Of a stretch of DNA of 51,334 nucleotides, positions 3,722 through 51,334 are shown in pieces. The notes under the pieces are model-generated. The model was not told where the DNA came from, searched no databases, and was given only the letters and a program-made list of their open reading frames with translations. Origin of the DNA: Rikenellaceae bacterium DTU049 (GTDB lineage Bacteria > Bacteroidota > Bacteroidia > Bacteroidales > DTU049). Each line of letters begins with the position of its first letter. Position 1 is the stretch's first letter. The DNA lies in NCBI GenBank assembly GCA_001513285.1, contig LFTI01000072.1, forward strand, positions 1-51,334, given 5' to 3'. A program made the translations under genes and the position numbers.

Positions 3722-3950
3722 TTGGTTCTATAACATTTTAAGTGGGCAAAGATTAAAAAAGTAATTTTATAAAAATGAAATTTATTATTAGACAGTTAAA
3801 TATTAACCACAAAGTTCTCAAAGCAGGCACAAAGAACACAGAGAATACTAGAATTAAAAGTCTTAAAAATGGCACTTTGTGAACTTTGTGTAATATCTTG
3901 GTGCCCTTTGTGGTAAAATAATTAACCCACAATAAACGTTATATAACCAA
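3722..3950. repeat. Family A short inverted-repeat element (complete copy)
   Basis: A 229-bp element bounded by imperfect terminal inverted repeats of about 25 bp: the left end reads TTGGTTCTATAACATTTT and the reverse complement of the right end reads TTGGTTATATAACGTTTA, both followed by GTGGG. Inside each end is a run of CACAAAG-type heptamers (left half) or their complement CTTTGTG (right half), so the whole element can fold into one long imperfect hairpin. No coding capacity is visible. Related copies are at 22878-23110 (reverse orientation) and 51088-51165 (partial). This is the structure of a MITE. A target duplication cannot be called because both flanks are A-rich. Confidence 0.75.
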
Positions 3951-22703: not shown

Positions 22704-23164
22704 TAAAATATTATTATTTACAAATTAAATACAAATATATATAAAATTTATCAAATTTAAAGATAAAAAACAAATTTAAAATTAAATTATTAATAAAATA
22801 TCGATGTTTATTACATAATAATTTATCCATTATAAAATATAATATTATAAAAACTATTAAATTTTATTCATTTTTTATGGTTCTATAACGTTTTTTGTGG
22901 GTAATTTATTTTACCACAAAGGGCACAAAGATATTACACAAAGTTCACAAAGTGCCATTTATAACCCCTTTTAATTCCATATTTTAATAAAATAACATTA
23001 AAGTTTATCATTCACTTTCATTTTTTCTCTGTGTTGTTTGTGCCTTCTTTGAGAGCTCTGTGGTTAATATTTAACTTTCCAATAACAAATAAAATTCATT
23101 TTTATAAAATTTAAAAATAATGAATAGCAAATAATAATTTAATTTTGTTAAACAATTATTGAAT
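22704..23164. other. 461-bp divergent intergenic region (T9SS cargo / aroC)
   Basis: Half of the region (22878-23110) is a family A repeat. The remainder is AT-rich with no ORF of interest. I do not see a clear promoter pair for either flanking gene. Confidence 0.5.
22878..23110 (+). repeat. Family A element, second copy (right terminus lost)
   Basis: Starting TGGTTCTATAACGTTTTTTG, this copy matches the reverse complement of the 3722-3950 copy almost end to end. It keeps the CACAAAG cluster (CACAAAGGGCACAAAG ..., then TTCACAAAGTGCC), the spacer and the complementary cluster TTTGTGCCTTCTTTGAGAG. Similarity stops after CATTTTTATAAAATT, about 25 bp before the expected end, so the distal terminal repeat is missing or diverged. 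Confidence 0.75.
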
Positions 23165-51087: not shown

Positions 51088-51165
51088 TGGTTCTATAATG
51101 TTTATTGTCGGTAAATTATTTTACCACAAAGGACACCAAGATATTACACAAAGATCACAAAGAGT
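51088..51165 (+). repeat. Family A element, left-half copy
   Basis: Starts TGGTTCTATAATGTTTATTG and continues through the CACAAAG cluster (CACAAAGGACACCAAG, then ATTACACAAAGATCACAAAG) in the same order as the copies at 22878 and 3722 (reverse). Similarity ends where the REP-like hairpins begin. Confidence 0.7.
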
Positions 51166-51174
51166 AGACTATTA

Positions 51175-51237
51175 ACCCTGACCTTTAGGTCAGGGTATGA
51201 CATAAAAAGAATATGGGCTTTAGCCCTGAAAAAGTCA
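51175..51237. repeat. pair of REP-like hairpins
   Basis: The first hairpin is ACCCTGACCT-TT-AGGTCAGGGT (51175-51196). The second has GGGCT-TT-AGCCC (51215-51226) enclosed by TATGAC and GTCATA. Paired GC-rich hairpins in an AT-rich genome are typical of REP/BIME sequences mobilised by RAYT transposases; no such gene is seen here. Confidence 0.7.
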
Positions 51238-51250
51238 TATCATATAACTA

Positions 51251-51320
51251 ATTTACTTTTCTTTGTCAGTCACACAAAGAAAAGTAACAAAAGAAAAGTC
51301 TCCGCTGGGGAAATGATTTG
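51251..51320 (+). repeat. hairpin module shared with family B
   Basis: ACTTTTCTTTGTC facing CACAAAGAAAAGT, then AACAAAAGAAAAGTCTCCGC and GGGGAAATGAT. This copies 26181-26250 with only a few differences in 70 bp, but without the family B terminus. Confidence 0.75.
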
Positions 51321-51334
51321 ATAAAACTACGCAA

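Follow-up and report, generated by a model that had tools for sequence, protein, structure and literature searches.

RAYTs (TnpA_REP) are nucleases of the Y1/HUH type. Their partners, the REPs, which are palindromes of 20-40 bp, and the REPINs, resemble the repeat described here in being multi-copy short intergenic palindromes that are tied to a one-gene nuclease and specifically recognised (PMC3116915, PMC8266576). MITEs derived from insertion sequences are similar in another way, since they have terminal inverted repeats (TIRs) and a target-site duplication (TSD) with a fixed length of 8 bp, lie between genes and reach high copy numbers as internal-deletion derivatives. The Rpn proteins (YhgA-like recombination-promoting nucleases, PF04754) have in common with the protein encoded here the PD-(D/E)XK assignment, a variable C-terminal tail, horizontal spread and a link to DNA mobility; they belong to another Pfam family, and the sections of the Rpn report used here mention no bracketing arrays and describe RpnA as cutting with little or no sequence specificity (PMC5350276). 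Intergenic heptamer arrays are known as the TAACTGA repeats of Beggiatoaceae, cyanobacteria and some Bacteroidetes, which lie mostly upstream of start codons and have been read as a possible post-transcriptional network; these arrays are direct and not inverted, use another heptamer and, in the sections of the source used here, are described with no enclosed nuclease gene (PMC4679880). The GxxExxY family (TIGR04256/PF13366) receives few mentions in the open-access literature, where it is named in passing only.

The window, the whole stretch of 51,334 nucleotides from Rikenellaceae bacterium DTU049 that was analysed, holds copies of a repeat that are probably non-autonomous, MITE-like derivatives of a small palindromic GxxExxY element, with heptamer arms that its own protein would read. 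The full-copy gene belongs to the GxxExxY family, whereas its setting inside inverted heptamer arrays is one on which we found no paper; a description of the pairing of GxxExxY with heptamers was likewise not found in the open-access literature, and may be noted elsewhere. In contrast to REP/RAYT, we observe a PD-(D/E)XK protein, paired-heptamer arrays and, in this genus, 8-bp duplications, and assignment to the REP/RAYT system was rejected because that system requires a Y1/HUH RAYT. Unlike in IS-derived MITEs, the parent that we identified encodes a nuclease-family protein but no DDE transposase, and heptamer arrays lie inside it.

A preliminary description of the window had recognised three copies of the repeat, and this picture was partly confirmed (Table 1). 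Copy 1 has the ends and the facing heptamer arrays that were claimed for it, with both terminal repeats and four CACAAAG-like units against four CTTTGTG-like units, and it is flanked on both sides by AAAAAAATT. Copy 2 is real but inverted, with a single TIR (the GGTTCTATAAC end, at 22879) and an opposite end truncated near 23111; it retains ATGAAAGTGAATGATAAACTTTAATG.., in which the first codons of the GxxExxY gene are joined to its 3' end. The third copy, taken for a 78-bp element, does start at the place indicated, but 51089-51165 is just the beginning of a copy of 608 bp in total (51089-51696) that is interrupted by a nested repeat. Within the window this nested repeat spans 51166-51334 and contains CCTGACCTTTAGGTCAGGG and GGGCTTTAGCCCTGA, motifs that also interrupt copies L024, L029, L210, L304 and L310. 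Additionally, a nested palindrome, TTCATCCTGTTAAATGCAAAGCAATTCCGCTTATGCGGAATTATTTAACAGGATAAA or a close variant of it, is found in L019, L021 and L029 (G000:C53:37979, C64:31870 and C97:5242, respectively), and in several copies a palindrome of this type occupies the same, or nearly the same, position in the right arm.

Table 1. Positions of the element copies in the window and of the parts of copy 1.
Feature	Start	End	Strand	Details
Element copy 1, end to end	3724	3948	+	Short (~230 bp) deletion derivative
Copy 1, left target-site duplication	3715	3723	.	AAAAAAATT, 9 bp in A-run; family mode 8 bp
Copy 1, left terminal inverted repeat	3724	3737	+	GGTTCTATAACATT
Copy 1, left heptamer array	3808	3843	+	Spacing 9-11-9; units CACAAAG 3808-3814, CTCAAAG 3817-3823, CACAAAG 3828-3834, CACAGAG 3837-3843
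Copy 1, remnant of GxxExxY gene 3' end	3847	3878	+	AGAATTAAAAGTCTTAAAAATGGCACTTTG (full copy: GGAATTAAAAGAGTAATAAATGGCACTTTG)
Copy 1, right heptamer array	3875	3912	-	Spacing 9-13-9; units CTTTGTG 3875-3881, CTTTGTG 3884-3890, CTTGGTG 3897-3903, CTTTGTG 3906-3912
Copy 1, right terminal inverted repeat	3935	3948	-	AACGTTATATAACC
Copy 1, right target-site duplication	3949	3957	.	AAAAAAATT
Element copy 2	22879	23111	-	Mid-size (~280-bp class) derivative, inverse orientation
Element copy 3, first part	51089	51334	-	Runs past window to contig position 51696

A genome-wide count of copies, which the preliminary description had proposed, gave 53 matching pieces, spread over about 40 places of this genome (G000; 1.54 Mb, 64% complete), with copy 1 as the query, far above chance. 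Three sister species of the same genus (G398, G399 and G400) hold 43-45 matching pieces each, and almost none are found elsewhere in the family. The ends GGTTCTATAACGTT..AACGTTATAGAACC are both present, with at most 3 mismatches per end, in 97 distinct copies, and the TIRs in this genus are about 14 bp long. In 25 of these 97 copies the flanking 8 bp are perfectly duplicated, where 0.7 would be expected and none of 300 permutations gave more than 4; the signal is strongest at k=8 (z = 11.8), and the few 9- and 10-bp duplications lie mostly in A/T runs. Furthermore, two sites are filled in G399/G400 and empty in this genome, with a flank identity of 93-98%. Both-ended copies, 8-bp duplications and orthologous empty sites together support the identification of the copies as MITE-like transposed elements. 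The earlier reading of the repeat as a MITE was thus upheld: it has TIRs, a fixed 8-bp duplication with empty sites and no intact transposase, and descends, through internal-deletion classes, from a longer element. In G398, which is 97% complete and contains 45 matching pieces and no GxxExxY gene, two copies at different sites are 0.3% apart and have matching or near-matching 8-bp flanks. These recent copies in a gene-less genome indicate either recent movement that does not need the gene, or a gene that was lost or missed.

Similar repeats presumably lie beside GxxExxY genes, which served as a search lead only. The sole full-length GxxExxY gene of this genome was found between both arms of a 581-bp copy (C73:34002-34592), and it is the only gene that this copy encodes. 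Its ATG lies directly 3' of the left array, and its TGA stop falls within the right array, in the first CTTTGTG unit. In the 280-bp copies, including copy 2 of the window, ATGAAAG.GAATGATAA is joined to ACTTTAATGTTATTTTATTAAAAGATGGAATTAAAAGG, so that both gene ends are present, and in the 230-bp copies, including copy 1, only the last codons of the gene are left. Since the gene ends are retained, the short copies arose by internal deletion, and the 280- and 230-bp classes are derivatives of the 581-bp copy by the classical MITE route. They illustrate how an element with a nuclease gene turns into gene-less repeats; if the proposed explanation is true, it would account for the CTTTGTG-type intergenic repeats in many Bacteroidota. 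The same-site gene shows 8 differences between G000 and G399, with a dN/dS of about 0.08 on these small numbers. A weak GxxExxY fragment, below the cut-off, lies at C11:11843 outside any array. The four-helix-bundle protein (TIGR02436) was rejected as an alternative cargo, both of its genes in this genome being outside heptamer arrays.

Two divergent genes have other surroundings. In L341 (G400:C56:1953-2297), a GxxExxY gene of 32% identity lies between ATTTGTG/CACAAAT arrays with ATCCACAGATTTACACAAATTAACAC, and the same unit is also scattered within element copies in this genome. In L339 (G397:C210:3334-3678), the gene lies between directly repeated palindromes, not CACAAAG arrays, which contain ATCATGATAAATCA and end in TTCAGACAATA.

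The product of the full-copy gene scores 132.2 bits against TIGR04256 (cut-off 35) and 128.1 bits against PF13366 (cut-off 22), and the parent gene is a GxxExxY/PDDEXK_3 gene of the PD-(D/E)XK nuclease family, although these models supply the name only and no function. Upon comparison of 159 proteins, the D...E-x-K catalytic residues D67, E77 and K79 are present in all of them, and of the GxxExxY motif E27 is present in all, G24 in 158 and Y30 in 157. The AlphaFold2 model has a mixed alpha/beta core (mean pLDDT 77) and low confidence over residues 112-126, which would fit a C-terminal tail that becomes ordered on DNA. Foldseek matches to this model are weak (all E > 0.02, best E 0.025), the best being the Cas4-like SSO0001, the fdxN excision factor 2okf, AF1548 and RecU, which are PD-(D/E)XK proteins (2okf being of the XisH type). 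The protein is predicted to be a DNA-cutting enzyme.

When sampling 396 genomes of the phylum Bacteroidota, we find a GxxExxY gene in 183. More than 130 GxxExxY elements were compared overall, in two samples that consist of better-scoring relatives and are not a random draw. In the first, of 107 loci, mostly from Bacteroidota and including Planctomycetota, Ignavibacteriota, Neomarinimicrobiota and Cloacimonadota, CACAAAG-like units reach 18.4 per kb over the 150 bp that precede the gene and complementary units 20.0 per kb downstream of it, compared to 1.0-1.5 per kb further off. At least two correctly oriented units are present on at least one side in 97 of the 107 loci and on both sides in 80, and 44 of 60 further loci have at least two on both sides, with CACAGATT-type units instead in some of the remaining loci. 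The arms usually consist of three or four units, for which a spacing of 9-(10 to 13)-9 is common. The association between gene and arrays is general and extends across phyla.

Next to this association, we observe co-evolution between protein and heptamer. Base 2 of the heptamer, which separates CAC-type from CGC-type units, has undergone 22 changes on the GxxExxY tree, and within a locus both arms mostly carry units of a single type. Upon scanning the alignment columns against base 2, two positions are outstanding, residue 122 and the tail-end residue 125. Isoleucine at residue 122 accompanies CAC (A-type) units, and valine or alanine CGC (G-type) units (mutual information 0.68, z 43.8). Residues 117-121 reach a mutual information of at most 0.13 and synonymous third codon positions are at the null, and because neither carries a signal, the correlation is not attributable to linkage with the adjoining arm; the codon after 122, freely variable in the replication set, also speaks against linkage. 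The same missing signal rules out a hidden heptamer within the last codons of the gene. On a protein tree built without the correlated residues, which is short and poorly resolved, 18 of 18 edge-disjoint sister pairs of opposite type are concordant and 1 of 33 same-type pairs differs; the closest opposite-type pair, L082 and L085, consists of two elements in one assembly. In a replication with 60 unused loci, isoleucine accompanies A-type units in 24 of 28 cases and valine or alanine G-type units in 14 of 14 (Fisher p = 5.8e-8). Pooling of the pairs results in 20 concordant, 0 discordant and 2 unchanged, with 6 of 54 same-type pairs differing. A link between base 5 and residue 121, which was seen in the discovery set, was confounded by deep clades and failed replication.

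Because residue 122 tracks the heptamer type, the encoded protein itself most likely uses the heptamers as its recognition sites, and the pattern suggests that a single residue close to the tail of the protein reads the heptamers of the arms. A protein-binding array, one of the roles first considered for the repeat, is strongly supported by this co-evolution of base 2 and residue 122. GxxExxY is known by its motif name only, and the present setting points to the heptamers in its own arms as a probable target. With the residue-122 code, a single point mutation suffices for a direct test of recognition, and the code, if it is true, provides a small nuclease family whose site specificity varies naturally.

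In the explanation that we favour, the element has arms of about four heptamer units each, arranged as two pairs and inverted around the gene, and the heptamers would be read partly by the flexible C-terminal tail, with Ile122 directed to CACAAAG-type and Val/Ala122 to CGCAAAG-type units. GxxExxY would bind and cut DNA at the arrays, which may help the element to spread. In this genus the unit also sits within outer TIRs (GGTTCTATAACGTT), through which the short copies multiplied, possibly with a DDE transposase supplied in trans.

Two other roles for the arrays were weighed against recognition by a mobile element's own protein. The preliminary description had raised a structured RNA, weighed here as a transcribed long stem with periodic loops under selection on pairing, and the consensus fold of the element (-61.7 kcal/mol, z = -6.1) is in its favour, as is the better match of the arms within a locus to each other than to the arms of other loci, although this can stem from a shared heptamer type. 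Copy 1 folds far better than its shuffles (z = -5.0), but the fold of copy 2 is not significantly better (z = -1.3). Additionally, compensatory changes over 61 aligned copies are at the shuffle level (18 versus a mean of 18.1; broken cells 395 versus 390) and no Rfam family is found at the copies, and we regard selection on an RNA stem as highly improbable. The initial proposal that a palindrome without compensatory changes would be accidental does not apply here, because the inverted layout recurs with diverged units in many other genera; we attribute the palindrome to inverted protein sites. The arrays could also be operators or mRNA elements for autoregulation of GxxExxY with no role in movement, to which the start codon right after the left array, the stop in the right array and a co-evolution that fits any specific binding would correspond. 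However, autoregulation needs no inverted arrays on both sides and leaves unexplained both presence and absence at orthologous sites and the multiplied gene-less copies, so we consider it improbable.

With respect to how the copies move, the gene-plus-arms unit is widespread, has no common TSD and is distinct from the genus-specific outer TIR/TSD. We found no fixed-length duplication in GxxExxY elements of other lineages and saw no GGTTCTATAAC ends in the other GxxExxY loci read, which indicates that the TIR/TSD mechanism is not general to GxxExxY elements. The ~14-bp TIRs and the 8-bp TSD in this genus look like a DDE transposase at work, and the copies might be ordinary MITEs moved by such an enzyme, e.g. 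of the IS1595 family, that recognises GGTTCTATAACGTT, with GxxExxY and its arms as captured passengers. The IS1595 family makes 8-bp target duplications, its transposase genes are abundant in these small genomes (59 matches in G000, 81 in G398 and 133 in G400), copies in gene-less G398 are recent, and the TIR/TSD is absent from GxxExxY elements elsewhere. On the other hand, 0 of about 34 examined IS1595 copies end in GGTTCTATAAC, and no transposase gene belonging to the element itself lies between paired TIRs in the stretches read in G000. IS1595 elements were rejected as owners of the TIRs, since their genes inside TIR pairs belong to nested insertions whose ends differ and the full copy encodes GxxExxY alone. 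An autonomous transposase with the same ends was not found among the TIR matches and these IS1595 copies in the 64% complete assembly: TIR-only matches are solo ends or truncated or nested copies and not full IS copies, and a 2356-bp TIR interval at C24 contains a secreted-protein gene. Captured passengers would also leave unexplained the GxxExxY genes in heptamer arms elsewhere and the residue-122 code, and only with regard to the outer TIRs is a DDE transposase compatible with the explanation we favour. Alternatively, GxxExxY itself may be a mobility nuclease that binds the inverted arrays, breaks DNA and acts in trans on full and short copies to move them, in the manner of an autonomous element with its MITEs. 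Its position as the sole gene of the 581-bp copy, its conserved catalytic residues, its co-evolution with the arms and the arms retained by the deletion derivatives argue for this, whereas G398 lacks the gene, other lineages lack TSD and TIR, and we know of no stand-alone PD-(D/E)XK transposase. Given the TIR/TSD pattern, the IS1595 findings and gene-less G398, the chances of a trans-acting transposase for the short copies appear evenly balanced, and movement by GxxExxY itself appears unlikely. Beyond this genus, we tentatively propose, with somewhat more doubt than belief, a class of mobile elements in Bacteroidota and beyond in which a single PD-(D/E)XK gene lies between inverted paired-heptamer arrays that form its own target code, the tail and the heptamer would switch together, and the nuclease would drive spread.

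When examining GxxExxY elements in other contexts, seven distant relatives were found on plasmids, and no related protein in the phages searched. Within the genus that includes G176, several sister species lack a 542-bp element and its arms at the same junction, where two genes nearly overlap, and the empty sites show no evident duplication. These sites were also considered with respect to a homing-endonuclease element, which would cut an empty site and be copied in by repair. At the site of this element, L351 (G082:C52) has only a solitary array of four CGCAAAG-type units, placed between two genes of an operon, which suggests that elements land beside solo arrays or leave them behind. The same gene junctions seem to be occupied in different genera or species in three sets of loci (L100, L116, L137 and L142; L121, L135 and L138; L051, L053 and L057), with the elements often located right where the upstream gene ends.
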